This document shows, in pieces, positions 17,407 through 64,000 of a stretch of 64,000 bases of DNA. How positions within the stretch are numbered: the first letter of the stretch is position 1; every line of letters begins with the position of its first letter. The notes under the pieces were generated by a model. The model was not told the DNA's origin and searched no databases. It saw only the letters and a list, made by a program, of their open reading frames with translations. The DNA is from Owenia fusiformis (taxonomy: Eukaryota; Annelida; Polychaeta; Sabellida; Oweniidae), in the NCBI GenBank assembly GCA_903813345.2, contig CAIIXF020000007.1:37036759-37100758 (forward strand), in the 5' to 3' direction. Made by a program: the position numbers and the translations under genes.

Positions 17407-17604
17407 ATGGAGGAAGCTTCGGACAGTAATTGTTGTGCTTCATGTAATAATACTGCAAAAGAACTGAAGACATTAGATTGTACGCACATTTGCTGTTTGG
17501 GGTGCCTTCAAGGTCTCATCAAAGAAAACAAATCGTCGAAACTTGTAAAATGTCCGAAATGCAAAAAGGAAAGCCGCGTACCTGATGGGGTGGAGCAGTT
17601 GAAG
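17407..17604 (+). CDS. RING finger exon (start of the TRIM-NHL-like gene)
   Basis: Sixty-six codons from ATG to the donor GAAG|GTGAGT. Cys and His spacing fits C3HC4: C10-x2-C13-x11-C25-x-H27-x2-C30-x2-C33-x15-C49-x2-C52, i.e. a cross-brace zinc site that recruits E2 enzymes in ubiquitin ligases. The sequence TLDCTHICCLGCL is typical of TRIM-class RINGs. The ATG is the first in frame, and no upstream exon is needed. Confidence 0.88.
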
Positions 17605-23600: not shown

Positions 23601-26600
23601 GAAAAAATGTATGCAAAGACCAGTAGCTACTTTTTAAATAACAAAATGACTATACGTGTAATTCTGTCAGTCTGAGAAAATATTTCGTCGTCATTAAATT
23701 ATAATGTCTTTATCCTCGAGTTATTTGATTATAACTGGTATAAAGGGGACAGAAATAGTAAGCTTCCCGGGGATAAATACGTTTCTGGTCTAGAAAATCA
23801 CAATACAGTAGTTTCTAAATAGCTTTAAAATCTCGCTAAATCTCGTTTTTTCATGAGATTTTTAGAGATTTGTACTTTTTACCTCTAATGACTTACTTTT
23901 CTTTATTTTTGATAGCATATTTGAATTCAGTGACAAGTTTTCTCCAATAATAAGTTTGATTTACACAGTTATGTCATTTAAATTATTTTCCATGACATTT
24001 AAAAAAACTTGAGCCAAATCTCCATTGGTGCAATGCTAAGATTCATTAAAACATTGGCTTATTCGTATGACAACCAACATTTTCATGTTTAATCACAATA
24101 TGTACATTAACAGTATCATCCGATAGTATGCCATTCGAGTTTCAGACAGATTCAACAAACACTTTTTGACAAATCATGAAATTAAGTTACTATTGCAAGT
24201 TCCTAGCATTGAACTGAATGGAGGTGTGGCCCAAGAAAATCAAAGACAAACAAGGGTGACATCTATTATGTCAGCGTTAATCGGCTATTTAGAAACTATA
24301 CAATTCGGCTTCCTCTCAAGAATATTGGGCTTTTCAAGATGACACCATGTTCAAAACTAGCAAAACAACCTGCAGGTCATATTCTACTTTTGGTCCCCAT
24401 GTAGGTCGCAGATGTAGATTGCAGAAATTTAATTACCTTTGTCCTTCCGATCAATTATTTAGTAACTGCCCAAGGCTAAGTTACCCAAGGCTAAGGCTGC
24501 ATTTTTGTACATGCTTTTTGCCTGTGGGCAAGATTTTAATCATAAAAATTAGCTAAACCGTGGCTACTCCACAATAGTATGTGTGAAATACCGCTGTTTA
24601 AAACAATTGAATATACACAACCATATCAATTTTACTTGCTCCGCGGGCATACGAAAATACACCCTTAGTCTGGGTACTTTGACGATATATTAACTAACTC
24701 ATGTAATTTGGACAAAAATAGTTTTTTCTGTACAATGTTAATCCTTTCCGAACATCATGTGGTTACAGTTCACTGTGTGAGAACAGGGCCGTGGGTCCTT
24801 TATTTTGTTTAATTTTGGTGAATGTGTCTAATCAAACATGAATGTTATGCTACCTTCAGCTCCTTTCTCTAACAACCTTAGATGAAGAGGTATCACAGTT
24901 ACTTAAAAGCCTGTGCGATCAATCAAAAGAAGATAAAATACATTTTGAGAAAGAACGAAAAAGGGCTGATGAAGAAAGACAAAGGATAGAGAAAGAAGCA
25001 ACAAAGAGGGCAGAAGAGGCAAGAAAGCAGGAGGAGGAGCAGAGGCAACTAGCAGAGGAACATCAGAGATGCATCGAAGAGAACGAAAAGCGAGCACAGG
25101 AAGATGTAAGAACTACTTTTATTTTAGATTACCTCTTATAGCAAAGTATACTTAGTCAAGAGCGTTGTTGAAATGTAATGTACTTCAATATTTTGATTTA
25201 ATAATGACCAAGTTGTTTGAAATCAAACTCTAAATCGTGACAATTTATAACATGTTATTATATTCTTTATTGCTGTCACAATAATGTATCATTAACTAAA
25301 AGCATCTGACTCAATAAATTACATCTGAGTATTAGCCAACAATAGCTCTCACTCACAGTAATAATGATGTATACCTTAGCCGCTGACATTGTCTTTCAAA
25401 TATCTATCACCCTTCCCCCTGACAGAGTCTTTTATCTCATTCCCATCGTAACAGTCTGGGAAATGATCAAAGAAGAATAATTACGAAGACATTGGTTATC
25501 TGTAAAACAACAAGATTTGACCTGCTACATAAATGATGAATAAACTGTAGTTGCAGTTGTAGCTATGTTTTTTAAAACTCCAGTCTTTCCTAGTTTGGCA
25601 TTAAAGAAAGTGGTTGTAAACACATGCTTTACAAAATATGTATAAATTCATAAAACATTTAAGTTAAAGTAAAAAAATCAGATGACAGTCATTTTGAATT
25701 TAAAGCCCAATTTGGAAATTATCTTAATTGAATACAAGGTATGAGTACAATAACCTAACATGACAGTTCATTCGATATTTGAAACTGCAAATCAGCAACT
25801 CCCTAAACTATATATATTTTATCCAAACAATCGTCATTTTGAACTTCATGAGACAGAAATGCCTTATTATCATTGGGCCGTGCCGGTATATTAAGAAGCA
25901 AAAGGGTATGAATATACTGCATGTATTGCAGGTATCCCAAAATGTAGCCGCCATCAGGCAATTACAGGAATACATCGCCATGTTACGGAAACAATATCCA
26001 GACATAACACTAAAGCTCGACCAACTAAAAAGACAAGAACTAGAAATAACAAAATCGCTAAAAGAAATTCCATCTATAAACAAAAATCTACAAAGGTATC
26101 CAGGGGAGGTATCTAAAGAGGAATGGAAAACTAACAGAGAGAAACATTTGCAACTGTTGAGAGAAGTTGGGAATCTTCATAAAGATATTGGTGAAGTAGA
26201 CAAGAAGCCAATGGAATATGTAAGAGCTATTGGCATTTATGAAACGGGAATAGTGCAATGTGGAGATGAACTGGCCAGTGAGTTGTCTAAATATAAAGAA
26301 GAGAAGGAATCTGCTCTTGAACTTTTCTTTAAAAATTGCATTGGAACAAAGACACCAAAACAATACTTGGACGATGAGAAAACTAATGAAAATAGACTTA
26401 AAGTAATACGGGTTAAATTAAAAGAAAAAATCCTACAGATTGATGAAAAAGAGGCCTGTTACTGTTACACCCCTGAGCTCACAGAGAAAGAAAGGATTCA
26501 ACGAGAAGAAGAGAGAATAGAAGACATTGGAAATATTTTCAAGTGGATCATTCAGGAAATGAAAACACTCATATCAAGTCTCATACAACAGTGTTTGGAT

Positions 26601-29600
26601 CTCCTAAATTTCCATGATGATGACTTCGCCTTGATTGCATTTGGGTCATTCTCAAGAAAAGAAACAACACCTTTCTCTGATGTAGAATTTGCTGTAGTGC
26701 AGAACTCTGATGATTTGGAAATGCAGTCTGAATACAGAGAAACCATAAACAAGATGGTTATGATTCTTCATCTGAAGTTCTTAGCATTTGGTGAAACTGT
26801 CCTCCCAGCAATGTCAATAGAGTCTTTAAATGACTGTGACCTCAATGACAAAACAAAGGACTGGTACCTTGACTTACGAAGTTATGTAAATACAAAACAG
26901 GGAATCTCATTTGATGGACTGATGCCACATGCCAACAAAACACCCTATTACATTAGTCATCAAAACACTAGTAACTGCTTTCGATTGACAAATACAAAGG
27001 CCGCATTCATAGCGAACTATCGTGAAATGGAAGAAAGTGATCTAAAACGGGAATTATATTTCTTCAAAGGGGACTTTACGACACTGTATGGAAACAAATC
27101 TGTTGAGGATGATTTGAAAAAAGAATTCAAGGAAAATAAGGCTCGAAGAGAAACAATTTTAAAGCTTATCAAAAATCAGCTCAGTGAAGACTTGGTCAAA
27201 CACTCCTGTATAAAAAAAATGTATGACAGTAAATACAAGAAAGAATTGATAAAGAAAACATCACTTCATGTAAAGAAAGAAATATACCGCTTACCAAGTG
27301 TTGTAGTAAACAACTTACTCCACTTGATGAACAGTAATGCAGATTGTATATGGGACATTAAAAAGTTAGAAGGTTTGGACAGTACGAAAACACACAACTT
27401 GAAAATGATATTATGTAACGCTGCAGAACTGCGACTAAGGTGCTACACAGAAAACAATGGTCAAGTAGACGAATCGAAGGACCAGCTGTTACCAAACTTG
27501 CTTGTCAAAGATGGCATTGAACAAACAACCTTCAGTACAGATCTCATTTTGCGCTACTACCAAACTGCCATACCACTTGTGTCTGCTATTGAAGCAGAAA
27601 AGTCAGGGGAAATAGTGGGAAAGATTGGACAATCATCTCTGTATGATCCATCTGACTTGAATAATGCCATTGCCTATATGCTGATGCGAAATCAGGAAAA
27701 GGCAAAGACGTACTTGAAAACAGCTAATGAAACATATGTGACTTCCGAGGCAACGCAACTAATTATGCATATTCTCTGCAATTTGTACATTGAAGATGAC
27801 AGTATAAGCAAGCCCTTTTTGGACAATCTGAAAATCAGAGTTCTTGAAAGTAAAAGCTCGGGGACCATGAATACATTGGGATGTGCCCTGCAACAAAAGG
27901 GCAACATTGAAGATGCGACTGAGGTACTAGAAACAAGTGTTCAAAAATCACCTCAAGATGTCGATTCTCTGATACTCTTGCTGTCAGCGTATGAAGAGGG
28001 TGGGAGGACAGCAGAATATGAAGACCTTCTGAAGAAACATCCAACATTAGCAGAGGTGAACACATTAATGTTATATTTTAATATAACCTTTCTTGATGAT
28101 TTGTTAAGATTTTCCAGTAAAATAATACTGTGCATACAAACTGTTCTGCTGTGAAAATCATTGGTGCAGATTTCAAAGCAATATATTGTCAATATTGAAA
28201 TATAGACATTATATCTGAAAGTATATAATTTAAGAATAGTAATTCAGTTAATCCATCGTTTTTTTAGATTCACAAACTTAGAAATGGCCTTGACGAAGCT
28301 AAGCAATTGCTGAAAATTGCAAATGAAAAGGTATATTACTTGCTTGATATGTTGTATATGTCTGTTTAAATTATTTTATTTCGGTTACTATTTGGAAAAC
28401 TGTTACAGCCCTAAACCCTCCAAATGTAAATACAGTAACATTTATAGCTAAAAATTAGAATAGGCAAACGTACATATATGCCTCGTATTTACTTTTATTG
28501 TAACACTCTTGAATGGGACATGTTGCTTCCTATTACTAAGTAACATATAAGATCAATTGAGAAATCAGACAGTTGGGAATATGGCTGTGACATTATGATA
28601 ATGAATAGTCCTAATGGTCTTAACTGTAAATTCTTCATTCGTGCATAAACCTCAGATAACTGATATTAAAAAACATTCATTTTTTAACTTTCAAACTGTC
28701 AAGTGAAAACACTACACTGATGTATAAGCAATTGCAGTATGTAACCTGACAATAATTATTTCATTTTAGGCTCGGGTTTTTTCCTCAAAGGTGAACACCC
28801 TTCAGGAAGAGCTGACAATGACAAAGGATAATCTGGTAGTAGAAGAACTAAAATCAAAAACAGAGGTACTCTATGCATGCAGTGTTCTAGCTAAATGTCT
28901 ATACTTAAACATATGGTGCCTTTTGGGCATCACACATATTTACACAAATAAAAATAATTCAGTTCAGTAGGTATGTTGATATTAATCAAATTCCAATCGT
29001 TCTACATCATCATTGTAGGCCAAAAATGTAAAAAGACTCCAGGATGAACTGTTAAAGGCAAGCAATAATCTGACAGAAGTAGAATCAAAAGCTGAGATAA
29101 AGGTATATTAATGTTACATCTCACTATGTCTCATTTTGTTACCGAGTCTCTATGTCTTTACAGCAAGATAAGTGGTGAAGTGATGTTAGTCCGAGATCCT
29201 ACAAACTGTTCTTCTTAGATTCGCATATCCCGTGTATTTTTACTTCTAGTGATTATGGTCTCCATAGGGCTGTTTTGTATTAATGTTACCATGAACATAA
29301 TCATTAATAGACCTCGCTTCTTTCTATGGAGGTTTATGGAATTTCGAATTTTGAAATAAATTAAAACCAAACCATAGATCTATTTTAAATATTTACGTAT
29401 ATCCAAACGCTATTACTGTTAAATATCTACTTTGAATGGGCCTAATATAATTTGAACTGAATACAAAGTAACAACAATTCTGTGAAGTGATAAAACAAGA
29501 CAGTGATCTCTACAGGCCCTCGCTGAAGATTATCATCTGAGAAATTAGTTTCAAGTTTTTCAAGAAAAATCTGCTGCCGGAAGGCAGGCGCTTTTTTGTG

Positions 29601-32600
29601 TTGCTCAGACACGGGGCTCGGTAACAAGGTGAAACACAGTGTATCTAATGCATATATATAGAGGTTATTTAATGGGAGGTTTTTGATACAGGGTATATCT
29701 GAGGGAAATACAACATATTAACCCGAGGGACCGTAGGGACCGAGGGTTGATATATTGTATTTACCGAGGGATATACCCGGTATTAAAAATCGACAATTTT
29801 ACTGAATGATTTATTCTATACTTAGAAGATTATAAGGGTTTATAGTCAAGTCCCCTTGCTCAGTATCTCCTCTCTAAATTTGTGACGTAGTAGATCTGAT
29901 GAGCCGGGTTTTTTACCTATAACACTACTAAGTATGGAATAAATCAGAAGCAGGCTCTGGATCTTTCTTCCAAGGTGAAATCTCTACAGGATGAGCTGGC
30001 AATGGCAAATAATAACCTGACAGAAGAAAAGCAGAGATCAGAGGCAGAGGTATAAAGTGAATATTTTAGAATGTTTTTTTATAAATAAATGTTGCCACTT
30101 GAACATTCATTTGATTCATATATTCCAAATCTTTTTTTCAATCACAGGCTCTGGATCTTTCTTCCAAGGTGAAATCATTACAGGATAAGCTGGCAATGGC
30201 AAATAATAGCCTGAAAGAAGAAATGCAGAGATCAAAGGCAGAGGTATGTGGGGAAATATGTTAGAATGTCTTTTTTCATACATATATAAATCTTGCCATT
30301 TGAACCTTTAAACATTCAAATGATTTCTTTGTTTCAAATCTTTTTTCTTAATTGCAGGCTCTGGATCTTTCTTCCAAGATGAAATCTCTACGGGATGAGC
30401 TTGCAATGGCAAATAATAATCTGACAGAAGAAAAACAGAGATCAAAGGCAGAGGTATGTGGGGAAATATGTTAGACTGTCTTTTTCATACATATATAAAT
30501 CTTTCCATTTGAACCTTTAAACATTCAAATGATTTCTTTATTTCAAATCTTTTTTCTGAATTGCAGGCTCTAAATCTTTCTTCCAAGGTGAAATCTCTAC
30601 AGGATGAGCTGACATTGGCAAATAATAACCTGACAGAAGAAAAGCAGAGATCAAAGGCGGAGGTATGTAGGGAAATATGTTAGAATGTCTTTTTTCATAC
30701 ATGTATAAATCTTTCCATTTGAACATTTAAACAATCAAATGATTTCTTTATTTCAAATCTTTTTTCTTAATTGCAGGCTCTGGATCTTTCTTCCAAGGTG
30801 AAATCTCTACAGGATGAGCTGACATTGGCAAATAATGACCTGACAGAAGAAAAGCAGAGATCAGAGGCAGAGGTACATAGGGAAATATTTTAGAATGTTT
30901 TTTTTTATAAATAAATGTTGCCACTTGAACATTCATTTGATTCATATATTCCAAATCATTTTTTCAATCACAGGCTCTGGATCTTTCTTCCAAGGTGAAA
31001 TCATTACAGGATAAGCTGGCAATGGCAAATAATAGCCTGAAAGAAGAAATGCAGAGATCAAAGGAAGAGGTATGTGGGGAAATATGTTAGAATGTCTTTT
31101 TTCATACATATATAAATCTTTCCATTTGAACCTTTAAACATTCAAATGATTTCTTTATTTCAAATCTTTTTTCTTAATTGCAGGCTCTGGATCTTTCTTC
31201 CAAGGTGAAATCATTACAGGATGAGCTGGCAATGGCAAATAATAACCGGACAGAAGAAAAGCAGAGATCAAAGAAAGAGGTATGTGGGGAAATATGTTAG
31301 AATGTCTTTTTTCATACATATATAAATCTTGCCATTTGAACCTTTAAACAATCAAATGATTTCTTTATTTCAAATCTTTTTTCTTAATTGCAGGCTCTGG
31401 ATCTTTCTTCCAAGGTGAAATCATTACAGGATGAGCTGGCAATGGCAAATAATAACCTGACAGAAGAAAAGCAGAGATCAGAGGCAGAGGTATATAGAGA
31501 ATATTTTAGAATGTTTTTTTATAAATACATGTTGCCACTTGAACATTCATTTGATTCATATATTCCAAATCATTTTTTCAATCACAGGCTCTGGATCTTT
31601 CTTCCAAGGTGAAATCATTACAGGATAAGCTGGCAATGGCAAATAATAGCCTGAAAGAAGAAATGCAGAGATCAAAGGCAGAGGTATGTGGGGAAATATG
31701 TTAGAATGTCTTTTTTCATACATATATAAATCTTGCCATTTGAACCTTTAAACATTCAAATGATTTCTTTATTTCAAATCTTTTTTCTTAATTGCAGGCT
31801 CTGGATCTTTCTTCCAAGGTGAAATCTCTACAGGATGAGCTGGCAATGGCAAATAATAACCTGACAGAAGAAAAGCGGATATCAGAGGCAGAGGTATGTA
31901 GGGAAATATTTAGAATGTTTTTTCAGATATAAATGTTCATCCGAATCTACATTCGGACAGTTGAGCAACGTGTGTATGTGTAGGAATATATAAGCACAAA
32001 TGCCAAATGGAAAGGGTGGCTAATTGAAAGGGTAGGGAATGTCAGCTGTGCTTCCTCTGGTGTGTTTGAGCGTTAACATCTGCTGCCCCTAGTCAGATCG
32101 ACTAACAAAACAACTTTTTTTGGGGTTGTTGAGTTGGCCGAGAGGGCTTAGGCGATTGGGCGCCGTAATCATGAGGGTGCGAGTTCGAGACGTGGTGTGC
32201 TCCGTGCATTTATTCATTCATTTGATGATTCCTACATTTCAAATCTTTGTTCATTTGCAGGCTCTGAATCTTTCTTCTAAGGTGAAATCTCTACAGGATG
32301 AGCTCGCGATGGCGAATAATACCCTAACTGAAGAAAAGCAGAGGTCAGAGGCAGAGGTATGTAGGGAAATATTTAGAATGTTTTTTATACATAGATATTC
32401 ATTCGAATTTATACATATTCATTTGATGATTCCTATATTTCAAATCTTTGTTCATTTGCAGGCTCTGAATCTTTCTTCCAAGTTGAAATCTCTACAGGAT
32501 GAGCTGGTTATGGCAAATAATAACCTAACTGAAGAAAAGCAGAGGTCAGCGGCAGAGGTATGTAGGGAAATATTTTAGAAGATTTTCTTTTCATATATTA

Positions 32601-35600
32601 ATGTTACCATTTGAGCTTAAAGGGCCAACAAGTATTGTAAAGAGAATTTTTTTTTTTTTGATTTTTTCTGATTTTTTTTAAAGATTTACCACGTTTCAAG
32701 AGGAATGTCAGCTGAAATAATGTTCATCCAGGGGGTTTCTTTGTAGATAATAAAAATATATATTAGTCTTGATGAAATATTCAAACTTAAGTATATTTTG
32801 ACACTGGTCGATGATCGTCGAATGCCCCCCCCCCTGCACTAATTGTTGCACCTAAAACACATTCCTTTGAGTTTTGTACTTCAAATATTTTTTAAGACTC
32901 TAGATCTTTCTTCCAAGGTGAAATCTTTACAAAATGAGCTGACAATGACAAATAATAACCTGACAGAAGAAAGGCAAAGATCAGAGGCAGAGGTGAGTAA
33001 GAAAGTATTTTAGAATGTTTTTGATAATATAAAATGTTGCCATTCGAACCTTATCAGTTTCTATGGATATCTATATTTCAAATCTTTTTTCAATTGCAGG
33101 CTTTGGATCTTTCCTCTAAGTTAAAATCTTTACAAGACGAGGTGGCAATGTCAAAAAATAGCCTGGCAGAAGAAAAGCAGAGATCAGAGGCAGAGGTATG
33201 TAGGAAAATATTTTAGAATGTTTTTTCATACATAAATGTAGTGTCATATATTGCATTCCTGCAATAATGATTAAATACAATGGGTAAACCCCACTGCCAA
33301 TGCAATATACGTGACTTGAGTGCTGCGTGCATTATAGGTTTTCCGTACATGTTCAGAAAGAATACTCTGACGAGTTGAAGTACACTTTTTATAATACGTT
33401 GTCCACCTGTAACACTACCTTTTAATTTTTTCTAGCAGTTTTTAGAGTTCCAGAATACATATTTTAGCAAGTATATTTTTGCATTATTTTCACCATGACC
33501 ATTGTTATCCTGCCATATAGAACAAGTAACAAGATTGATAAAATGTCGAATGGAGTAATTAATCTATTTGGAAGTGAAAGAGTGTCAAATAAATTAATCA
33601 TATGGAATTCAAACAATCCCAAGCAAACAAGTATTTTGGCATTCACAACAGTGGTGTCCAATCATTCCTTTATGAATATATCGTGTACTAGAGATAGTGA
33701 GTTGATCAAACTGACAATTTCTGATATTGAGCTACTCCGTTCGACCTCTGCCGAAACAAAAGCTGGAATCCTATTGGCTTACATAGTGTACATTATGTTA
33801 CAGGGCAAGCTAGAACACAGTGCCCCTATTCGTGTTTACTGCCTGTTGATTATAAACCAAACATAACAATATAAATTATTGCCTGTAGCGAACTTTTATT
33901 TTTTACATTACATAAATATGTATATTTACATCAAATGAATTATGACATGACTGCATGATCACACACCTGTTGAAAACAGGTTTCACGCCTAACCATCGAC
34001 AACGTACGGTGACAAAAATATCGTTGTACACTTTGGATGTACGTTGTCAATGTTAAGTGATTTGTAGTAAATACTATGATGTAGGTGTTACACGCCTAAC
34101 CATCGACATGGTACAGTGACAACATATACCATAAAACACTTTAGATGTACGATGTCACTATTTAACCGATTTGAAGCAACGACAATGATGTAGGTGTGAT
34201 GTAGGTTTTAAAAAAGTAATCTTGGGAATACTTGAAAGATTTCATATTTAATTTCGTGTGTATTCGTTTAGGAAGACATTTAACTTTCTAATAACGTTAA
34301 AAGATTTTCGAACAGTGCTCGATTTTTTCGTTGTCAATCTACCCACGAAAATTGATCGGTAGGAAAATGTTGGGTTTTTCACATTTCCTTTGATCATTTT
34401 TCCCCTGTTGCCTAAGAGTGTCGATTATTTTTACGAGAACATGTTTCTCTATACTACACAATTGAGGACGGGTAGTGATTAATAAATATTCAAGTATTTA
34501 TTGTAATTGAAAAAATCGGAAATGTGCGTTGTCAACTCGAATGTACGTTGTCCCTGTAATTAAAATTCATGAGATATACGTAATATTAAACAATGTAATG
34601 ATTTCATTTCAAAATTCATTAAGGTTTTTATGAGTAACAAGTGATCTTTAACGAACATGTTCAAGTATCCTTTGTCCTTTTTCATTTTATGAAAGTATTG
34701 TTGTTGTGGTGGTGGTGGTTAATTTGTGCCCATTTGGTGTTAGCTTCCAGCCAAAACTCCCATTCAGTGTCTCGTAATAGAATATGTTGAAGACTAGCAC
34801 TGCCACGGAGCCTGCTTCCAGCCTGTTTGATTATTTGGCGTCTGTTCCTTACGTTTTGTAAGTTACATTGATAGATAGATCTACTGATCTATACTAGCTT
34901 ATTGAATATGACTTTAAAATCCTGTTTATGATATATCTGGAAAGTTTCAATAGTTCAATCAAATTGAAGTAATTCTGTAATTGTTCTGTTTCAATTTTAA
35001 TTGCATCTGACCCCCCTGTCTGTTAGTGTTATGAAAATACATTGTCTGCATTAGGGTTAACTGTGAATTGAGTAAGTTCAATGGGACAACGTACACTTAT
35101 GATTTTTTAAATTATAGCCAAAATGTTAATACTTGTTATATCTTCAACAGACCTTAATTGTGCTGTTTAAAGAAACATATTCTCATAAAAATCTTCGACA
35201 CTCTTAGACGACAGGGGAGGAAATGATCAAAGGAAATGTGTAAAAACACAACAATTTCCAACCAACCAAATATATTGGTAGATTGACTACGAAAAAATCG
35301 AGCACTGCTCGAAAATCTTTTAATGTTATTAGGAAGTTAAATGTCTTCCTGAACGAATACACAAAAAAAGTCAAGCATGAAACCCTTAATGCATTCCTCA
35401 GATTATTTTTTTAAAACCTACATCAAACCTACATCATTGTCTTTGCTTCCAATCTATTAAATAGTGACATCGTACATCTAAAGTGTACCACGGTATATTT
35501 TGTCACTGTACCTTGTCGATGGTTAGGCACGTGTTATGTAAATGAAAAATACGTTGCCTGTATTAGGGTTAAAACTGTGAATTGAAATCTGTAAATTCAA

Positions 35601-38600
35601 TGGGACAACGTACAATCGATTTGACAACGTACTATGCTTCTGATTTTTAAAAATATAGCCAAAACGTAAACATTTATTAAATCTTTAACCTACCTAATTG
35701 TGAAGTTTAGAGAAACATATTCTTTAAAAATAATCGACACTCGGCGGCAGGGGAAAAAAGATCAATGGAAATGTGGATAAAGCCAACATTTCCCAACAGT
35801 CAGTTATGTGGGAGGAATTACGAAGAAAAAACTCGAGCGCTGATCGAGAATATGTTAAGTTAATTAGAAAGTTAAACGTCTTGCCAAGAGCATGCAACTT
35901 TTTTTTCTTAGATAATTTATCATAGTTTTAGCTTCAAATCGGTGAGTGTGCTTCACTATTTGATAACGTGCATCTAAACTGTGCGACGGTATGTTTTGTC
36001 ACTGTACGATGTCGATGGTTAGGCATGGGTATGTGTCATGCCCAAACTCAATACAAACAGTGTAGATGGGAAACCTTCCAATTATCTATCGCATTGCCAT
36101 ATCAATTGGCGTATTTTAATCAATTTTGTTTGGATTGATGAGAATGAGGATTCTGCTCCTGCTTAACAAAAATATCCCCGGAAGAACGCATTTATGATCT
36201 TCCAGATTTTGCTTAAAATCCATACAAGTGAATTTAATATGTTTCAAATTAGCTGAAACAAGTCTCTGTTATTTTAAGCTAAAAAGCTCATTTGGATAAC
36301 AACAAACATAAAAATCAGTTATTTTATTCATTTCAGGTTCATGGCCTTTCCACAAAGGTGACAACCCTTCAGGATGACTTGTTAATGTCAAATAAAAAGC
36401 TGGTGGATGCTCAACTAAAATATGAGACTGAGGTATTTAAACACAAATGGTGTACAGTTTCTGCATGAAATATTTTTCTATACAAGCTGTAGAAGGAGCG
36501 TACAATAAGCAACGGACGCTTATTTTCAAATGCGTTTATTTTCCTTAATGACAAATCTTTAATCAAATCGATGCATAATTGTTCAGTTGTCAATCAGCCC
36601 TCATATTTTAAGATAAAATGAAGCCAGATATCTTTTGCAATCTTAATTTAAATGAACATAATACATGTACCCCGGGATCGTAATTACCTATTCAATAATT
36701 CACTATTTTAGATTTCTGAAGCTTTTTAGGCGAATTTCGTATATTGAATGTCATCCAAAATGTGTTGTAAAATTATTAATAGAATACAATTTAATAATTT
36801 TATTTCCGTATAATTTTGGTTCCATGACCATCTATATCTTACCTTAACTGAGGTACCCAGTGACCTGCGAATTACATCTTGCGCATATCGCCATTTTGTA
36901 GTTAAAATGACCAAACCAGTTGATACATCTTGCGAAACATCTCTCTTTATCCGGCAGCTCCACCATGTGATATTCCTTTGTATGAATCAATTTACAAACT
37001 AAGTAGTCTTGGGTCAAATACAATTTAATAATTCTATTTCCATATAATTTTGGTTCCACTACCGTACCATCTATCTTATCTAAACTGAGGTACCCCGTGG
37101 CTCGTGCTTTACATCTGGCGCAAATTGCCATATGATATCTCGAATAACCAAACCAGTTGATACATCTTGCGAAACATCTCTCAATACTTGGCAGCTCCAT
37201 TATTTGATATTCTTTTGTTTCAATCTATTGACAAACTAAGTAATCTTTATTTAAATACAAATTAATAATTTTATTTCCTCATAATTTTCGTTCCGTTATC
37301 GTATCATTTATTTTAAATAAACTGAGGTAGCCCGTGGCTTGTGCTTTACATCTGGTGCATATTGCCATATGGTATCTCGAATAACCAAACCAGGTGAGAC
37401 ATTTCGCGAAACATCGCTCCAAATGCTTGAGTCACATTAGTTTTTATTTATCAGCAGGCACCCGGCTGACTGAGTATTTTGTTCAAAATAAAATTACATT
37501 CAGCTTTTAACAAAGTACTCATCGGCCGGGTGCCAGTGTTGAAGATTGGAGCTAATGTGACAACCGCGATACCCGGCAGCTCCACCATGTAATATACTTT
37601 TGTTTCAGTCTATTGACAATAGGTATTCTTTTGTCAATTTCAATTAATAATTTTACTTCTTTATAATTTTGGGTTCCACCATGAGCTCTATGTATAGCCC
37701 ATGGTTCCACGTTCCTCTATCGTATCTAAACTTGGATAACGTATGTCTTGCGCTTCACATCTGGCGAACATAGTGGAACGGCGAACCACGTGGTTTCTCA
37801 AATTACCAAACCAGACATTTAGCAAAACATCCTCAAAACAGTCGCTAATGCACGTATTGCTCACTACTAGACTACAAGCAATAACATAGAATTACAGGGT
37901 GACCCCCAAAAATGCAGTCCTCCATTTCTTCAATATTTTTCTTAAATGAAGGTTGATTGCTTTGAAATTTGGCACACAAAGACTTCATTCAATGCGGGAT
38001 CATCTGGCAAAGTTATAATAATCATAATCTTATATTGACAGAGTTTTGGTCGTTCCAAAATATGCTATGAATTGAATGAAGTCTTTGTGTGCCAAATTTC
38101 AGAGCAATTAACATTCATTTAAGAAAAATATTGAAGAAATGGAGGGTTGCATTTTTTGAGTCACCCTGTATATACACTTATGAATACATGGACAAGAAAT
38201 GTTTTGTTTTATTCAAGTACTATAGGTAGTTCACAAAAATGCTTTGATATCACGTTCTCCTTTCTTAATTTTATATTATAGGTACAGCGACTTCAAAATG
38301 CCCTTGCCCAATCCCAAGCATCCGTAACTGCATTACAAGAGGCAGCAAAGGTAAATATGTAGTTTAGTATATGTGGATTGCTACCCTTACCCTTGTATCA
38401 CACCAAACCAGTTCTCACTACACTTTCTCGAAACGGGCAAAACTGTGTACAAACGGATTAGACTGTCTCGTGGTCGTCACGATACAATCAGAACGAGTAA
38501 CTTTAGAGCTCAACGTACTACGAGCCGAACTGTCGTGATTTAAACCAACAAGGAAACCATCGCACAGGGTATTATCGTTATCAGGTTAATAAAGGATTGT

Positions 38601-41600
38601 GAATACATTCTGCACGGATTAGGGACAAGATTCTACCTTTTTAGAACGAGTTGAACTGTCTGGAAATTATGACATGATCACATTTGCTCCGATCTTCAAC
38701 ACTTGTGCTCGGCCGATGAGTATTTTTAAAACTGATGGCATTTAAAAAACGAACTAAACTAACGTACTGTAACATAGCAACGTACGACGAGATGAAAGCA
38801 TATATGAAAGAATGCTGATGAAAGAGTCGGCAAAAATAGTATTTCCCATAGACCCTATGTTGTAAAATAACTAAAAGTGAAATATCTTTTCTTGTGTTGG
38901 GCAAATAATATTTTCTTTTACTGGACATATTTTAATTTGTATAACTATCAGATACATAAGGGTTATATTAAAAGGGAAAACTGGTGAATATTCAAGTTTA
39001 AAGGAACTTTGTAATACCCTGCCATGTCATTTCCCCCACTTAGCCACCTGGTGGAGAAACTGGTAACTACCTACACTCGCATCTGAGTAATTAGATCGTT
39101 TGACAACGTACATCAAACGTTGAGATACTAGACGAGCGTAATCGCCATAGTTAGACCTCACTAGGGACGCGTTAACGATGTTGTTCGATCGGATATCGTT
39201 TGCACTGCAGTACGTGTGCACACCGACATGGTGCGACCTGAACGAACTGCGATAGAGATGGACGTATTGAAGACTGTTTATGAGCGAAGTAGCTAATTAT
39301 TGTATATGTTTTTCAAGACTGCAATCAGATTTAGTCCATTGTACGACTTTTTGTATGACTGGAAAGAAGCGAACTAATTTGGTGTGATAGGGGGGTAAGA
39401 GGATGATTAGTAATATTGTAATATATACAAATACTAAATATGTCATAAAAAGGGGTAAATGACTAGGTATTACGTATAATTCTTTGTTTAAAAATGATCA
39501 AAAAGCAAGGCACTATATGAAACACCATCCAAAATATACTCTTCACACATGAGAGAGCATTCAAAATATCCTTTACTCTCGAGAGATCATTTAAATTACT
39601 TTTCACACTAAAAGTTGTTAGTCTGCAAAAAAGATTCGCATTCATTTCTAAAGTCCCATGCGTTATACGTAACTTATCAGTTCCCGAACGTTTAATTCAA
39701 TTCTGCTATAAAGAGGGCGAAAAAGACAAAATAAGCTTTGCCGGGGATGCTTTTTATCTAAAGATGATGTTATACAAATGTATTTTCTTAAAGTTCATGT
39801 CGTAAAAATGTTTTAATTGTTTTAAGGTATTCTAATCAATGAAAACAGATAACACGATCAACAAAATGCGTAATGATTTTTTAACTTAATTTGGAATCGC
39901 AATGGAAATTTCCCATTTATTCCAATATTGCTCAAAAGGCATTGCATGAAACTGGCAAAAGTAAAAACATCAGTGTATCATTTTATAAAGTAAGATAGCC
40001 CTGTTTTCACCCAGACTTTTCGCTGTCCAGACAATAGGTATCAGAAGTGACGTAATACTTGCCCTTTGGCACGGATTAAGGGTGACTATTTGTACTGCTG
40101 AAGGAGGATTTGCTCCCTGAATGCAACATTGATATTTTGCCTAAAATGGTATCGTGACCTTTAACCTTATATACACGTGACAGTTTTTGAAATGGCAGAA
40201 CTGCATGTCACGATACCATATATATAATGGGGCAGAATATCGATGTTGCATTCTGGGAGCCAATCCTTCTTGAGCACTGCTCAATATTTGGAAGACACAT
40301 CTCTAAGAAAATGAAAAGTTGCATGTCGTTGATTACCGGCAGCTCCACCACCTGATCTTATATTTATTCATTTTATCGACATTGACAATTTGAGGCAATT
40401 ACAATTTTATTTCCTTTTAATTTGGGTTCCATAATTACCATAAATGTTGAATTTTGCATCTAAACTGAGGTACCATGTGGCTTACGCTTTTCATTTTGAG
40501 TGCATCGCCACGTGTGGTATCTCAAATTACCAAACCAGATTTGGAAACATTGCTCAATAACACGTAAAAGGATAAAACTCTCACTAATGCCTTGGTCACA
40601 TTACTTCCGATTTTCACTACGGCGCCCGGGCGATTGAGTATTTTGTTCAAAATTGAATACAATATTGAACAAAACACTCAATCGGGCGGGCGCCGGCCGA
40701 TGGATCGGCGCAAATGTGACCCGGGCATTACGTATAGCTCAATGATTGCCCTCAGATTTTGAATCACAATTCAAACATGATAACATATTAAGACTGAAGG
40801 ACATTTCTTTAGAAAGTGGTAGTAATACAGGGTGTTTTATAATGACCGTCTCCCCGTCCACATATATATTTTATCACTTAACCCTTAATCTATATGTCAT
40901 TGTGAATCTTTCTGGACGAATTCCGACCCTTGGTTATTGCTTTTGACAGATCACATAGCTTTTAAAGAAATATGTGGCTGTCACGGTTATGCCAAAGATC
41001 AAATAGGCACCTTTTGTAGTAATATGTAGGAAGAAGTAAAAAATACTGAACTAAATTTAAATTATTTTAAAAAGTCAAGAATTGAACGAGCTTTTATGAT
41101 ATGGAGAAATGTTATCTAGGATTGATGATTTACGGGGGACGGCCATTATGAAACACCCTGTAACGTGGAATTTCGCACGTTCAGTAAACCAAGCAGCATT
41201 CAGATTCTACAGTGTGTTAAGTTCCTGAAGTGGTTTTGATGAAACTCTACCTACTTACCACACATTAAATGAAGCTAATTTGTGCCAAATTAAAAATGCA
41301 AAAAACACCATGGACATGATGGAAGTCATTTGGTTTTATTGCGGTTGCATGTTTTACACCAATGTCTGCGTTTTGAAGTATTTTTCTATTACAAATGTCT
41401 TCTGAGCAGGTGTCCAAGACATTATGTTTTTTCCAATAGCTAATTACATGAGCTATACATTTGAGGTACCTTTTTTCTTTCCTAAAACAATAAACACAAT
41501 TGGTTAGTATTTTCCAAGATATAGCGATTTCTTACGGTTGCTTTTTTGAACACCCTGTATAAAACTCTTACTATTAAAATCTCAACATTTCAACATTAAC

Positions 41601-43546
41601 TTTTACTCAATGGTCCAATCTAATGATGAATAAAATTATGGAAAATCATGGCAGTAAGGTCAGAAAAGTGAAATGATGTGGTTTATGTCATCTAGGATTG
41701 GTGATTTACGGGGGACGACATTTAGATCCTTTTGCAGCAAACAAATTGTTTACAGTTTCAATATGGAATTACACTTAATCGTCACAACTTAAGAAATATA
41801 ATATAATAAACAAACTTCTAGAAATTTTGTCAGCTTTAAAATGCTTTTTATTTCAACATTCTAGCTCAATTACTTAGAAAGTTCTGAGCGTTTTATTTGG
41901 CTTGGTCTAATATATTATAATGGTCAACAAAAGCACATTTGCCCTTACAGAAAAATCAGAAACATTAGTTTCAATTCCTTTATTTCACAAGATTAAGCAT
42001 AATCTCGAGATGGAATGTAACTCAGAAGTAAAATCAAAAATACAAGTTTTGAACTCATTTTTAATAATACTGCATCATTAATTGTCAAGAATTCAAAGAT
42101 TGCGTGATTTTAAATAGAATTTTGCAAGGGAATGCGTTTTTTAATAAGATGAACAGGTGGCCAATCTTTGCAACAAAATCTTAATATAGAGCGAAATTGA
42201 TTGACAATGGGTCCTTGCGGACCAGCTTATTTATTTTTAGCGAGGGTTGTCAGCTAGAAAATCAATACAGGTCCAATGCAACAAAAAGTAAACAAAACTT
42301 CGTTTTCATCCCTTTCCCTAAAATAATGTTTTTGGCGCTAAACTTTGCCTAGATAACTTTTGCAACGCATCATATTCGTCTGCTTGTTCCATTCAGTAAT
42401 ACATAACATCATTTTGTGCTACAAATATGATAAATATCAGGTAATATGAATTGTTTATTTGTAATTGTTTATTTGCACTTTGTAGATAAACACTTACTAT
42501 TACAGATCTAATAAACAATAAAATGCTACATATGCAAATTCCAATAAGGCAAAGTAAAAACTTGTGTTTGATCCTTCTAATTATATGTCAGATTATCTAC
42601 AATTCAAATTGCTACAAAATTAGTTTTGAAAATTCATATAAAACTCATTAAATCTTTTGTTTTAATCTCATAAATTTATTGTTTTGAACTGAATTATTGA
42701 TGCTAACTTTTATATTAATGTTTTGATTTGATGTGATTGCAGGTCAGCAAGCTTGTGGAAATGAAACTCAAGAAAAAGCCAATAGTGGAGAAGAAGAATC
42801 TACGATCAAATACGATACAAGATCTAACTCTCATTCCCAATGGCCATTTTGCAGTAACAGGTCTTGGCATTTCCACAAAGATATATGGCCGAGAGCACAA
42901 CCAGTTGAAAGATCTTGGAAAGCAGTTCCTTTTCGTAACATTAACTTCCGATGGCCATCTGGCATTCACCAACAACACGAACACCATAAGTGTCTACAGT
43001 GTAGACGGGACCCCCACACGGGACATCACCTGCAGAGGACCTGCAGCTAAGCTACAGCTAGCAGGTATTACATCAACCCCTGCAGGTGAGCTGCTTGTAT
43101 GTGATCGCACCACCAAGACAGTGTACCGTGTGGATCCGTCCACTGGAGACACGACTCCCCTTTCCAAGCCTGATACATTCGTGACCCCTTGCTATGTGGC
43201 ATCAACAACATCTGATGTCACCATAGTCAGCGACTACATGGGTCATTGTATTAAAGGCTTGGATAAAGATGGCAGGGAAGTTTTGAATTACGGGAAGCGC
43301 GGCAGTGGTCAGGGTGAGTTGAAGTTCCCCTGTGGTGTCTGCACAGATGCAGCCAACCACATCATAGTTGCAGACAGTCACAACAACAGGGTACATCTCC
43401 TGACCCCTGACGCCAAATTCCTTCACTATCTGCTTTCCGAGAAAGATGGCGTGTTTGGCCCCCGTTCTGTTGCCATCAACCAGGAGGGGCAACTGGTAGT
43501 TGGAGATAACGATGGCAACATATTCACTATTACATACAGGAAGTGA
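17407..43546 (+). CDS. RING-nucleotidyltransferase-TPR-coiled-coil-NHL protein (TRIM-NHL-like)
   Basis: One gene model of 22 recognised exons, all joined in phase 0: 17407-17604, 24860-25105, 25932-28055, 28268-28330, 28770-28865, 29019-29102, fourteen 96-nt exons (29954-33195), 36337-36432, 38282-38350 and 42743-43546. If all are used the protein has about 1,707 residues. In order it has a C3HC4 RING finger (10-52), a charged helix (67-148), a coil plus a GlnD/DUF294-type nucleotidyltransferase core (motif at about 386-400), a helical substrate-domain-like region and TPR-like helices (to 856), a long coiled coil (857-1440) and an NHL-type propeller (1441-1707). RING and NHL proteins of the TRIM class are ubiquitin ligases; here no B-box is seen and a nucleotidyltransferase domain stands in the middle. 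A TATA-like ATTTATAAG lies about 50 nt before the ATG. That all exons belong to one transcript is inferred from strand, order, phase and domain logic. A split into two genes, or missed exons in the large introns, remains possible. Confidence 0.72.
17745..17880. repeat. G-rich tandem repeat, about four diverged units
   Basis: Units of about 40 bp contain CCGAAAAAAATCT followed by G-rich GGGGGTTGGTGG. The apparent Pro/Phe-rich minus-strand ORFs here come from this repeat. Confidence 0.65.
17935..18420. repeat. Dispersed repeat, copies A and B (direct)
   Basis: A unit of about 330 bp begins TTTTCTAATATT(A/G)(C/T)AGAT and includes CGCTATCAATATGGCTTCACT. A second, truncated copy follows at 18285. 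Inverted copies lie at 20985-21320 and 21335-21690, so the 18.0-21.7 kb stretch is a large, loose inverted repeat. Confidence 0.7.
18811..19652. mobile_element. Inverted-repeat element, second copy of the 567-1224 type
   Basis: The left end ACTTTAAGTCCCCGTCTAAA and the right end TTTATATGGGGACTTTAAAT are near complements and resemble the ends at 567-1224. The interior is AT-rich and non-coding. Confidence 0.6.
20055..20405. mobile_element. MITE with TACACTCCCC ends
   Basis: The ends TACACTCCCCCCCATAAGTT and AACTTATGGAGGGGAGTGTA are complementary. The repeat continues inward with TTGGCAAC/GTTGCCAA and AAAGCCTCTTT/AAAGAGGCTTT. The middle carries the hairpin GGTCAAGTAAATTTTATTTACTTGACC. Confidence 0.85.
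20985..21690. repeat. Dispersed repeat, copies C and D (inverted)
   Basis: Two tandem copies, in the opposite orientation to 17935-18420, share TTAGTTAAGCCA(C/T)(G/A)TTGATAGC and ACATCCTAGGAATAT. The two copies are separated by about 20 bp. Confidence 0.7.
21727..22359. mobile_element. MITE with TA-CAGGGTGATTCATAATGACCG ends
   Basis: The left end TACAGGGTGATTCATAATGA pairs with the right end TCACTATGAAACACCCTGTA, with TA at both edges. The same family occurs at 40826-41162 and as a relic near 41690. Confidence 0.8.
22365..22548. mobile_element. Truncated copy of the 16043-16688 MITE
   Basis: Only one end is present. It shares ATACTTGGC(A/G)AATCAATGTAAC and TATGACACATACTAT with the intact copy and ends ACTTTCGGGACACCCTGTA after a G run. 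It lies directly against the element at 21727-22359. Confidence 0.75.
24860..25105 (+). CDS. Charged coiled-coil exon of the TRIM-NHL-like gene
   Basis: Eighty-two codons between acceptor TGCTACCTTCAG and donor GAAGAT|GTAAGA. The first 20 residues are Leu-rich (LLSLTTLDEEVSQLLKSL). The rest is an Arg/Glu/Lys/Gln-rich single helix with repeats such as EERQRIEKEA and EEQRQLAEEHQR. A nearer AG (before ATGAAGAGG) would break phase 0, so the CTTCAG site was chosen. It takes the place a B-box/coil would have in a TRIM protein. Confidence 0.82.
25932..28055 (+). CDS. Large exon: nucleotidyltransferase core and TPR-like helices
   Basis: A single 708-codon exon, phase 0 at both ends (acceptor TGTATTGCAG, donor GCAGAG|GTGAAC). 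Exon residues 1-215 are mainly helical and charged. At 231-254 the stretch FALIAFGSFSRKETTPFSD then VEF has the GS...R.E.T..SDxE pattern of GlnD/DUF294-type nucleotidyltransferases, with G238-S239 and the acidic pair D250/E252 in the metal-binding positions. Residues of about 440-510 (HVKKEIYRL, NAAELRLRCYTE) resemble the helical domain that follows in that family. Residues of about 573-708 form TPR-like helix pairs (NAIAYMLMRNQEKAKTYL; CALQQKGNIEDATEVL). The family includes enzymes that transfer nucleotides to proteins. Whether this one is active, and on what, is unknown. An upstream in-frame extension to 25779 is intron sequence. Confidence 0.85.
28268..28330 (+). CDS. Short coiled-coil exon, 21 codons
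   Basis: Phase-0 exon (TTTTTTTAG acceptor, GAAAAG|GTATAT donor) encoding three heptads with KLRNGLDEAKQLLKIANEK. It links the TPR end to the coil. Confidence 0.7.
28770..28865 (+). CDS. Coiled-coil exon, 32 codons (array-like founder)
   Basis: It is 96 nt and phase 0. The residues FSSKVNTLQEELTMTKDNL are clearly related to the tandem exons downstream (SSKVKSLQDELAMANNNL), but diverged, so it probably resembles the ancestor from which the array expanded. Confidence 0.8.
29019..29102 (+). CDS. Coiled-coil exon, 28 codons
   Basis: It is 84 nt and phase 0, exactly four heptads, and contains VKRLQDELLKASNNLTEVE. Related to the array exons but four residues shorter. Confidence 0.78.
29103..29953 (+). 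other. Intron with a palindrome
   Basis: Between coil exons. It contains palindrome copy 5 (29660-29795) and otherwise nothing recognisable. Confidence 0.6.
29660..29795. repeat. Palindrome, GACCGTAGGGACCGAGGG loop family copy 5
   Basis: The outer arms (TTTTTGATACAGGGTATATC / GATATACCCGGTATTAAAAA) and inner arms (AAATACAACATATTAACCC / GGGTTGATATATTGTATTT) flank CGAGGGACCGTAGGGACCG. The loop matches copy 3 and the copy at 44251, while the stems do not. Confidence 0.8.
29954..33195 (+). CDS. Array of fourteen tandem 96-nt coiled-coil exons
   Basis: Exons: 29954-30049, 30148-30243, 30358-30453, 30567-30662, 30777-30872, 30974-31069, 31184-31279, 31394-31489, 31588-31683, 31798-31893, 32261-32356, 32462-32557, 32897-32992, 33100-33195. 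Each is 32 codons, phase 0 at both ends, with consensus start ALDLSSKVKSLQDELAMANN and end EEKQRSEAE. Heptad positions are held by L4, V8, L11, L15, A18 and L22. Thirty-two residues equals three heptads plus one hendecad, so the coil keeps register across repeats with one stutter each. Exons 1, 7, 8 and 10 differ from one another at only a few residues, and 2 and 9 encode the same peptide; 13 and 14 are the most diverged. All donors are GT and acceptors AG. Addition or skipping of any copy keeps the frame, so coil length could vary between transcripts or alleles. Confidence 0.88.
31939..32210 (+). mobile_element. Insertion in a coil intron with a tRNA-like segment
   Basis: The intron between the tenth and eleventh array exons carries about 270 bp absent from its siblings. 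Its 3' part (about 32128-32206) has an A-box-like GAGTTGGCCGAGAGGGC and a B-box-like GCGAGTTCGAGACG with spacing fitting a Leu/Ser-type tRNA, though no clean cloverleaf. It is probably a tRNA-derived SINE fragment or tRNA pseudogene. Confidence 0.45.
33965..35535. mobile_element. Large inverted-repeat element, arms of about 450-700 bp
   Basis: The left arm includes CACGCCTAACCATCGACA, GATGTACGATGTCACTATTTA and CGAACAGTGCTCGATTTTTTCG. The right arm carries their complements (TAAATAGTGACATCGTACATC, CGAAAAAATCGAGCACTGCTCG, TGTCGATGGTTAGGC-like). The left terminus is partly duplicated (33985 and 34088). The centre (about 34690-35050) is unrelated single-copy DNA. No ORF; possibly a foldback-type element. 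Confidence 0.75.
35555..36040. repeat. Third, partial arm of the foldback element
   Basis: Direct repeat of the right arm of 33965-35535, sharing GGGTTAAAACTGTGAATTGA, CAATGGGACAACGTAC and ending CGATGTCGATGGTTAGGC. It is more diverged and lacks the inverted partner. Confidence 0.7.
36337..36432 (+). CDS. Coiled-coil exon, 32 codons, after the array
   Basis: It is 96 nt and phase 0 (TTCATTTCAG acceptor, ACTGAG|GTATTT donor). It encodes LSTKVTTLQDDLLMSNKKL and is homologous to the array unit but diverged, like the upstream exon at 28770. Confidence 0.8.
36785..37790 (-). repeat. 237-bp repeat with a conserved Cys-rich reading frame
   Basis: Four tandem or near-tandem units start near 36785, 37020, 37257 and 37640; a fifth relic is at about 40340-40560. 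On the minus strand two adjacent units (37200-36844) form one open frame of 118 codons. Each unit carries ERCFARCINWFGY, then MAICARC and TGYLSL: a C-x3-C...C-x2-C pattern about 20 residues apart. The third unit keeps ERCFAKC, WFGYSRYHMAICTRC and TGYLSL but has a stop after it. The fourth and fifth are broken. Unit length is 79 codons, so repeats stay in frame. I do not recognise the family; it may be a decayed zinc-knuckle gene or a coding piece carried by a mobile element. Confidence 0.55.
37430..37570. mobile_element. Short palindromic element, GTCACATTAG ends
   Basis: The arms GTCACATTAG and CTAATGTGAC enclose CACCCGGCTGACTGAGTA and TACTCATCGGCCGGGTG. It is inserted between units of the 237-bp repeat. 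A second member lies at 40597-40730. Confidence 0.75.
37893..38170. mobile_element. Nearly perfect palindromic MITE, TA-CAGGGTGAC ends
   Basis: The arms of about 110 bp are near complements: TACAGGGTGACCCCCAAAAA against TTTTTTGAGTCACCCTGTA, then CCTCCATTTCTTCAATATTT and GGCACACAAAGACTTCATTC with their complements. The spacer is under 60 bp. TA at both edges. Such fidelity suggests a recent insertion. It ends about 110 bp before the next coil exon. Confidence 0.85.
38282..38350 (+). CDS. Coiled-coil exon, 23 codons
   Basis: It is 69 nt and phase 0 (ATATTATAG acceptor, GCAAAG|GTAAAT donor). It encodes VQRLQNALAQSQASVTALQE, a helix related to coil ends rather than to the 32-codon unit. Confidence 0.72.
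40095..40280. mobile_element. Palindromic element, AAGGAGGATT...AATCCTTCTT
   Basis: The arms CTGAAGGAGGATTTGCTCCC and GGGAGCCAATCCTTCTTGAG pair, and inside them TGCAACATTGATATT / AATATCGATGTTGCA and ATGGTATCGTGAC / GTCACGATACCAT. A related pair lies at about 55433-55770. Confidence 0.8.
40597..40730. mobile_element. Short palindromic element, second member of the 37430 family
   Basis: The arms GGTCACATT and AATGTGACC enclose GCGCCCGGGCGATTGAGTAT and the complementary ACTCAATCGGGCGGGCGCC. The GC-rich CCCGGCG ends contrast with the AT-rich surroundings. Confidence 0.75.
40826..41162. mobile_element. MITE with TA-CAGGGTGTTTTATAATGACCG ends
   Basis: The left end TACAGGGTGTTTTATAATGA and the right end CATTATGAAACACCCTGTA are complementary with TA edges. 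Same family as 21727-22359 but about half its length. Confidence 0.8.
42743..43546 (+). CDS. NHL-type beta-propeller exon (C-terminus of the TRIM-NHL-like gene)
   Basis: Acceptor TGTGATTGCAG in phase 0; 267 codons to TGA 43544-43546. After a basic coil end (KLVEMKLKKKPIVEKKNL) come blades with the NHL rhythm: IQDLTLIPNGHFAVTG, FVTLTSDGHLAFTNNTN, LAGITSTPAGELLVCDRTT, GVCTDAANHIIVADSHNNRV, SVAINQEGQLVVGDNDGNI, with G-x-G-x-L-x-P before a blade (GQGELKFPCGV). In TRIM-NHL proteins this propeller binds RNA or protein partners. Five to six blades can be counted, and the fold is complete by its C-terminal strand. GC content is higher than in the coil exons. Confidence 0.88.
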   Translation, partial: VSKLVEMKLKKKPIVEKKNLRSNTIQDLTLIPNGHFAVTGLGISTKIYGREHNQLKDLGKQFLFVTLTSDGHLAFTNNTNTISVYSVDGTPTRDITCRGPAAKLQLAGITSTPAGELLVCDRTTKTVYRVDPSTGDTTPLSKPDTFVTPCYVASTTSDVTIVSDYMGHCIKGLDKDGREVLNYGKRGSGQGELKFPCGVCTDAANHIIVADSHNNRVHLLTPDAKFLHYLLSEKDGVFGPRSVAINQEGQLVVGDNDGNIFTITYRK

Positions 43547-43696: not shown

Positions 43697-43702
43697 AATA
43701 AA
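43697..43702 (+). terminator. Possible polyadenylation signal of the TRIM-NHL-like gene
   Basis: AATAAA about 150 nt after the stop codon. The position is plausible, but the hexamer is common in this AT-rich flank. Confidence 0.35.
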
Positions 43703-58601: not shown

Positions 58602-63819
<5,218 letters not shown>

Positions 63820-64000
63820 CTTGAGAAAATATCAAATCGGTTATCTGGTATTTTACAATTGAAGTGGACAAGTGGAATGTGCAAGTTTAATGTGGTTAAC
63901 ATTCAAAAACAACACAATCACAGAAATCAACACAAGCCATTAACATGAAAAATGTTACCACCTGCCATTTGTTACAGACACAGAATGCCAAAAAATCGAA

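Follow-up and report, generated by a model that had tools for sequence, protein, structure and literature searches.

We analysed a window of 64,000 nucleotides from the genome of the annelid Owenia fusiformis (contig CAIIXF020000007.1, hereafter C7, positions 37036759-37100758) and found that its forward strand appears to encode, between window positions 17407 and 43546, a single protein in which a RING finger, a nucleotidyltransferase (NTase)-TPR module, an array of coil exons and an NHL propeller follow one another. The original prediction, that one protein contains RING, NTase-TPR and NHL, is strongly supported by the conserved order, strand and phase of the parts in paralogues and by Owenia gene models that join them pairwise, and for the window locus we infer a single transcript. 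To that prediction we add a family of paralogues, a coil array of variable length and a fast-changing face of the NHL propeller. Our joint reading, which we hold to be moderately probable, is that of one spliced gene of about 1707 amino acids (aa) that combines a RING, an NTase of the GlnE/DrrA type, a coil and an NHL propeller for target recognition.

The gene model comprises 23 exons on the forward strand (5124 nt, 1707 aa) with no internal stop, AG/GT borders at every intron and every exon length divisible by 3, and leaves room for additional exons within the larger introns. The exons run, in codons, as RING 66, coil 82, NTase-TPR 708, coils 21, 32 and 28, fourteen coils of 32, coils 32 and 23, and NHL 267 plus stop. 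All exons named in the original prediction lie where it had placed them, with the expected AG/GT borders, and the phase-0 junctions that it claimed hold for the named joins (17604/24860, 25105/25932 and 38350/42743) as well as throughout the model. The features, in window coordinates, are as follows.

17407..17604 (+): RING exon, 66 codons, C3HC4; starts with ATG, GT at its end; Pfam match, conserved in paralogues
24860..25105 (+): first coil exon, 82 codons, LLSLTTLDEEVSQLLKSL...; AG/GT flanks, 15 genome matches, dN/dS
25932..28055 (+): 708-codon exon; AG/GT flanks, Pfam, motif and predicted fold
28268..28330 (+): coil exon IHKLRNGLDEAKQLLKIANEK, 21 codons; follows the NTase in all 4 fetched paralogue loci
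28770..28865 (+): coil exon ARVFSSKV..., 32 codons
29019..29102 (+): coil exon AKNVKRLQDELL..., 28 codons
29954..33195 (+): 14 similar exons of 96 nt in an array, phase 0, each coding for a 32-aa coil unit ALDLSSKVKSLQDELAMANNNLTEEKQRSEAE; unit number varies among paralogues
36337..36432 (+): last 32-codon coil exon, VHGLSTKVTTLQ...
38282..38350 (+): coil exon VQRLQNALAQSQASVTALQEAAK, 23 codons; also before the NHL at C9:29.95 Mb, the sole fetched locus reaching the NHL
42743..43546 (+): NHL propeller exon, 267 codons and TGA stop, hypervariable loops on one face
43697..43702 (+): candidate polyadenylation signal AATAAA, from sequence

A chance open frame was ruled out for the 708-codon exon, as the probability of its staying open is about 7e-20 per given stretch (at the stop frequency of window positions 5-17 kb). 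The order of domains recurs in paralogues at 55-82% identity and is therefore not due to chance either.

Searches covered the whole 498-Mb genome in 525 contigs, in which at least 68 rows match the 708-codon exon (63 of 103 candidates scored). For the pairing of loci we used 22 of the 68 NTase rows (identity of at least 44%, one per locus), the 12 of 78 RING rows with at least 44% identity, the best 12 of 145 NHL rows by E-value and 14 first-coil rows, obtained from 15 matches by joining two adjacent pieces. We found that, 12-46 kb downstream, 11 of the 12 closest NTase loci (55-100% identity) have a close NHL exon on the same strand; the remaining locus sits on C381, a small contig. On a crude estimate that assumes a uniform spread, a random NHL locus has a chance of about 0.0013 of lying in such a position. 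Conversely, all but one of the 12 NHL rows are paired with NTase loci, the unpaired one being at C7:39.38 Mb. A RING lies 4-25 kb upstream in 8 of the 12 closest NTase loci. As for the others, one begins at base 205 of its contig, the C381 locus has its first coil at base 782, C7:36.16 Mb has only a 14-residue RING-like piece, and at C9:28.22 Mb no upstream RING was found among the 12 RING rows used. The inner exon order is maintained in the four fetched paralogue loci, and C9:29.95-29.97 Mb contains the full row of RING, coil, NTase, short coil, coil array, last coil and NHL, with identities to the window of 73% for the RING, 67% for the coil, 73% for the NTase and 73% for the NHL. None of the next 10 NTase loci (44-56% identity) has close RING or NHL relatives; P0009 and P0011, NTase relatives on contig C4, bear a more distant NHL. 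The stretch C7:39.38-39.45 Mb has a family NHL exon (+), two RING exons (-) and coil exons in either orientation but no NTase match, and represents a rearranged or incomplete copy of the family.

The 11 closest annotated proteins in a protein search with the NTase exon are all from Owenia fusiformis, and several join the parts. P0003, marked partial, has a RING, a coil and an NTase with DUF294 at 24.8 bits; P0009 and P0011 each have an NTase (identity to the query of 42% and 41%, over 94%) followed by an NHL (20.9 and 40.5 bits, cut-off 20); and in P0014 the NTase-TPR part continues into coil units. For the Owenia genome, RNA-seq support is reported for 31,678 of 31,903 filtered transcripts, a genome-wide figure (PMC9977687).

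The RING exon matches Pfam zf-C3HC4 at 25.2 bits (cut-off 21), the C3HC4 ligand pattern is kept in all eight RING copies compared, and the exon is under purifying selection, with a ratio of nonsynonymous to synonymous divergence (dN/dS) of 0.12-0.32 between the window copy and three paralogues. The protein has the N-terminal RING of TRIM/RBCC proteins and the C-terminal propeller of TRIM subfamily C (NHL). The exons that follow the RING include charged, repetitive ones that are coil-like by sequence. TRIM proteins are defined by a RING plus a B-box (PMC3503706), and no B-box was found among the Pfam matches (E <=10, weak ones filtered) of the four exons scanned (RING, first coil, NTase, NHL), the introns being unscanned. 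Correcting the TRIM-NHL plan put forward originally, we therefore call the protein TRIM-like and do not file it as TRIM, which is likewise the position of malin. Compared with NHLRC1/malin and the TRIM-NHL ligases (TRIM2/3/32/71, Lin-41, Mei-P26), it further differs in that an NTase-TPR module of 708 codons and a variable array of exons separate its RING from its NHL. Two tandem RING exon copies at C9:11972617-11972811 and C9:11973410-11973604, 78-82% identical to the window RING, carry two in-frame TGA each, by eye at RING cysteine positions, have no NTase match nearby, and look decayed.

The 708-codon exon is laid out as a helical N-terminal part (about residues 1-225), the NTase core (about 226-390), an HEPN-like helical domain (to about 560) and candidate TPRs (about 570-708), all borders being approximate. 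The key residues of the core are G238, S239, D250, E252 and D328, the first four numbered as originally given. The motif GSFSRKETTPFSDVE at residue 238 is present in all 11 paralogues, and G238, S239, R242, E244, P247, S249, D250, E252, E288, G324 and D328 are identical in 11/11 NTase copies; the motif residues are also nearly invariant (>=90%) in a 23-sequence set that includes distant relatives. These comparisons used 11 of the 12 close loci (C381 left out), with the F copy represented by its first piece only and one in-frame TAA of the K copy masked as X for alignment; among the 11, the C29 copy carries an in-frame stop. Purifying selection acts on this exon too (dN/dS 0.13-0.30 for the window against four paralogues; within-group averages of 0.33 for six copies and 0.26 for three), as it does on the first coil (0.17-0.30, window against four paralogues), and most copies of the RING, first coil and NTase exons look maintained as working protein.

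By Pfam, DUF294 scores 21.4 bits in the 708-codon exon, barely above its curated cut-off of 21, and TPR_2 21.4 bits, under its cut-off of 27; DUF294 is above the cut-off in 4 of the 11 scanned Owenia relatives (P0003, P0006, P0008 and P0010). The predicted structure has an NTase fold and a following helical domain as in GlnE (glutamine synthetase adenylyltransferase) and DrrA, and a second structure aligner ranks these two far above the other rows. The original prediction had staked itself on such a fold at exon residues 215-330, and the structure prediction contains it; its naming of the GlnD/DUF294 type is corrected in that the NTase resembles the protein adenylyl transferases GlnE and DrrA. 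The link to GlnE/DrrA is a structural one and, at the level of the model, well supported. An active HEPN ribonuclease was rejected, as R-x4-6-H occurs only at exon residue 77, outside the HEPN-like domain.

Forty more NTase-TPR rows at 24-32% identity are spread over many contigs, with open frames of up to 4014 codons, and by these counts the DUF294-TPR repertoire of Owenia is very large. The annotated P0007, in which a ZIP zinc transporter and the NTase-TPR module are combined, may be a fused gene model. P0009 and P0011 belong to a side group (also P0023 and L060); these two begin with MGN, followed by repeats (STDTEALFERKE), the NTase and the distant NHL, and in 80-residue bins they are 81-99% identical at 320-879 and 51-92% after 880, in the NHL region. 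A C4 locus was set aside as proof of a fusion of NTase and NHL in one exon, as its open frame stops with the NTase-TPR part.

The coil units of 32 aa correspond to 96-nt exons spaced about 200 bp apart in the dense part of the array, and being symmetric phase-0 exons they can be gained or lost as whole units without a frameshift. The window has 17 units by profile, 14 of them close, while tblastn finds 40 at C7:36.15 Mb, 27 at C9:29.95 Mb and at least 18 and at least 16 in two further loci, where the fetched stretch may cut the arrays. At the twin locus C7:36.81 Mb, a copy of window 31986-34839 is present twice, about 9.4 kb apart. From these sequences we infer a coiled stalk of variable length.

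The NHL exon (Pfam NHL, E 7e-13) changes in a different manner. Among the seven copies of the C7 group, mean dN is 0.103 and mean dS 0.071, a ratio of 1.45 by NG86 counts at low dS (bootstrap 1.06-2.16), and among the three copies of the C9 group dN/dS is 1.74 (1.07-3.01). In the structure model, the replacements concentrate on one face of the propeller, with the top loops varying and strands B and C hardly changing; this concentration is seen in three groups (P 2e-13, 9e-5 and 1e-10), whose variable sites overlap. Among known structures, the same model resembles TRIM3, TRIM2, Thin and TRIM71/Lin41, and RNA-bound Lin41 and Brat are among the entries matched. At C8:2.234-2.244 Mb, partial NHL matches (51-77% identity) lie in a run, several of them with in-frame stops; this run looks decayed and was excluded from the counts.

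The most recent pair allows the NHL exon to be set against its own surroundings. Between the window and C7:36.81 Mb, identity is 99.4% for the NTase exon, 98.1% for the introns and short coil exons around it, 97.8% for the intron preceding the NHL exon and 96.0% for the 201 bp after that exon, but only 92.0% for the NHL exon itself (Fisher P 9e-8, NHL exon versus intron change). Throughout the C7 group, similarity is 86-98% over the 700 bp before the NHL and 80-98% over the 150 bp that follow the stop. Within groups, silent divergence of the NTase exons is several-fold above that of the NHL exons, except in the window/C7:36.81 Mb pair, which indicates that NHL ends have been homogenised between copies, and gene conversion and selection probably act together on the NHL. 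Trees of NTase and NHL concur in the main groups but differ in where they put C7:36.81 Mb and the window copy, which are 99% twins. These two are paired by the intron sequence 150-700 bp before the NHL (98%) and not by the flank more than 150 bp past the stop (55%). We read this mismatch as fast exon change, conversion, or both.

A number of observations weigh against the joint reading. RING, NTase and NHL occur together in none of the 11 annotated Owenia proteins, the RING of P0003 is slightly below the Pfam cut-off (20.1 versus 21 bits), DUF294 in P0009 and P0011 falls short as well (16.9 and 17.2 versus 21), and the exon joins are drawn from homology and from gene models of other loci. Foldseek alone is weak, with no match at E <=0.001 and an IFT-A chain at rank 1, GlnE at 2 and DrrA at 5; the PDB, searched by sequence with the NTase exon or its profile, returned no GlnE or DrrA, only TPRs and a weak kanamycin nucleotidyltransferase. 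The two halves of GlnE catalyse opposite reactions, so that likeness to GlnE does not fix the direction of the NTase (PMC8097203). The NHL structure model has a mean predicted local distance difference test score (pLDDT) of 72.7, with the first 61 residues below 50. For the NHL, the NG86 ratios come at low dS, gene conversion is likely, the third group (2 sequences) has a ratio of 1.29 that is not significant (confidence interval 0.82-2.44), and more than 150 bp past the stop the window flank is unlike the six other C7-group copies (54-57%). Between groups, the window NHL against the C9:29.95 Mb copy gives a dN/dS of 0.54 at a dS of 0.36, the latter meaning that silent sites are not frozen, and the other Owenia NHL pairs (n=2) give 0.51 and, on very few changes, 1.13, so that fast NHL evolution may not be special to the RING-NTase-NHL family.

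One rival reading is that of two or three neighbouring genes (RING; NTase-TPR-coil; NHL) duplicated as a block and not spliced together: introns of 7.3 kb (17604-24860) and 4.4 kb (38350-42743) set the end exons apart, no annotated protein examined holds all three parts, and the 10 NTase loci of 44-56% identity do without close RING and NHL relatives. Yet phase-0 splice borders without a stop throughout the model, the pairwise links in P0003, P0009 and P0011, the passage of P0014 from NTase-TPR into coil units and the identical order seen again at 55-82% identity make separate genes most improbable. A better case can be made for relaxed constraint and gene conversion among the copies, instead of positive selection, as the source of the NHL pattern, since within-group dS is low (0.04-0.10 in the C7, C9 and last groups), the largely alike pre-NHL intron of the C7 group indicates homogenised NHL ends, the lower confidence limit is as small as 1.06 and, for the third group, less than 1, the between-group ratio is 0.54 and the control pairs are mixed. 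We nevertheless consider it rather unlikely: the NHL exon of the recent pair changed more than its own intron, and loss of constraint should not spare the other faces, whereas strands B and C stay stable while the top loops vary in three groups at overlapping sites.

How such a protein might work can be outlined as follows. The N-terminal RING would serve as the finger of a putative E3 ubiquitin ligase; the middle would be an NTase of the polymerase-beta type, akin to the protein adenylyltransferases GlnE and DrrA and equipped with an HEPN-like helical domain, after which TPRs would follow; and the long coil of near-identical exon units would space and probably oligomerise the protein. The NHL would bind a foreign or altered molecule via its fast-evolving face, and clustering on this putative target would bring RING and NTase together, the RING ubiquitylating and the NTase attaching adenosine monophosphate (AMP), or possibly another nucleotide, either to the target itself or to a partner in signalling, a protein being the putative acceptor. 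We tentatively suggest, as a possibility short of an even chance, that the family comprises diversified intracellular receptors in which a hypervariable NHL selects the target, a RING ligase and a GlnE/DrrA-type AMP transferase modify it, and the exon-wise coil array sets the reach. A putative role in defence is preferred because immune recognition families typically combine copies specific to a lineage, an enzyme that is conserved and a recognition face that changes fast. The recognition and immune reading is plausible.

Alternatively, the protein could be an RNA regulator whose NHL binds RNA (cf. Brat, Lin41), whose NTase extends RNA ends and whose RING acts as in TRIM71. The NHL model's matches would suit this, as would the variable face, which we take to be the loops that bind RNA in Lin41/Brat-type proteins; but the NTase model is far closer to the protein-modifying GlnE and DrrA than to other rows and a fast-diversifying face would be unusual for a conserved RNA regulator, which leaves this unlikely. 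We give about the same low weight to a plain RING-NHL ligase with a dead or merely nucleotide-binding NTase as scaffold or sensor, an option raised in the original prediction. The NTase motif is D-X-E, unlike the D-X-D of DrrA; against this, the identity of the motif residues in 11/11 paralogues makes a dead enzyme less likely, these residues are kept at >=90% in the 23-sequence set, the NTase dN/dS is 0.26-0.33, and a review gives Asp/Glu for both acidic positions (PMC8097203). That the NTase makes a small signalling nucleotide upon ligand binding by the NHL would have a parallel in animal NTase receptors of the cGAS-like kind (PMC9980059), but GlnE and DrrA are the closest folds listed (the absence of cGAS-like entries from the list is no test), and we find this very unlikely.

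RING-NHL proteins and DUF294-TPR proteins are known separately. GlnE and DrrA/SidM are both bacterial, lack RING and NHL, and are not linked to the Owenia NTase by sequence search. The nearest published layout found is the NEX2 family of Neochlamydia, with 50 members, an F-box, TPRs and, in most members, DUF294; like the Owenia protein, it has an N-terminal ubiquitin-ligase part, DUF294 and TPRs, and a lineage-specific expansion, and unlike it, NEX2 is bacterial and has an F-box instead of a RING, while NHL and coil array go unmentioned in the accessible part of the source (PMC4209131). FICD and SelO are metazoan AMPylases that put AMP onto proteins (PMC8097203); they share with the proposal for the Owenia NTase the transfer of AMP to proteins in animals, and their folds, Fic and pseudokinase, differ. 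In the open-licence literature we found no paper on a combination of TRIM/RING, NHL and NTase/DUF294, and none on diversifying selection in an NHL propeller. We know of no earlier GlnE/DrrA-type AMPylase in animals, so that the receptor reading, if true, would describe the first.

A protein search with the NTase-core alignment yielded 23 proteins, 16 from Owenia and 7 other or metagenomic ones (25-29% identity) with DUF294 and/or TPR, and the NHL search yielded five, of which P0026 has RING, B-box and NHL; no protein named from another animal was among these matches, which thereby leave the absence of the architecture from other animals untested. Two peptide patterns taken from the Owenia core, scanned against bacterial and archaeal genomes, gave 48 stretches, none of them confirmed. 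If the receptor reading is true, an NHL fold is used as a variable recognition surface, and one animal protein holding both modules, in a family of at least 12 loci with a conserved NTase and a diversifying NHL face, would tie ubiquitylation to nucleotide transfer and offer an invertebrate counterpart of variable immune receptors, with hypervariable positions readable from the genome. The chlamydial F-box-DUF294-TPR parallel suggests that ubiquitin targeting and a DUF294-type NTase have been paired more than once.

Elsewhere in the window, we observed a 25-bp satellite of about 43 copies (47161-48233), a 128-bp tandem array (48943-51178) and, on the reverse strand, a WW-domain exon (63471-63902), which presumably belongs to a HECW-type ubiquitin ligase.
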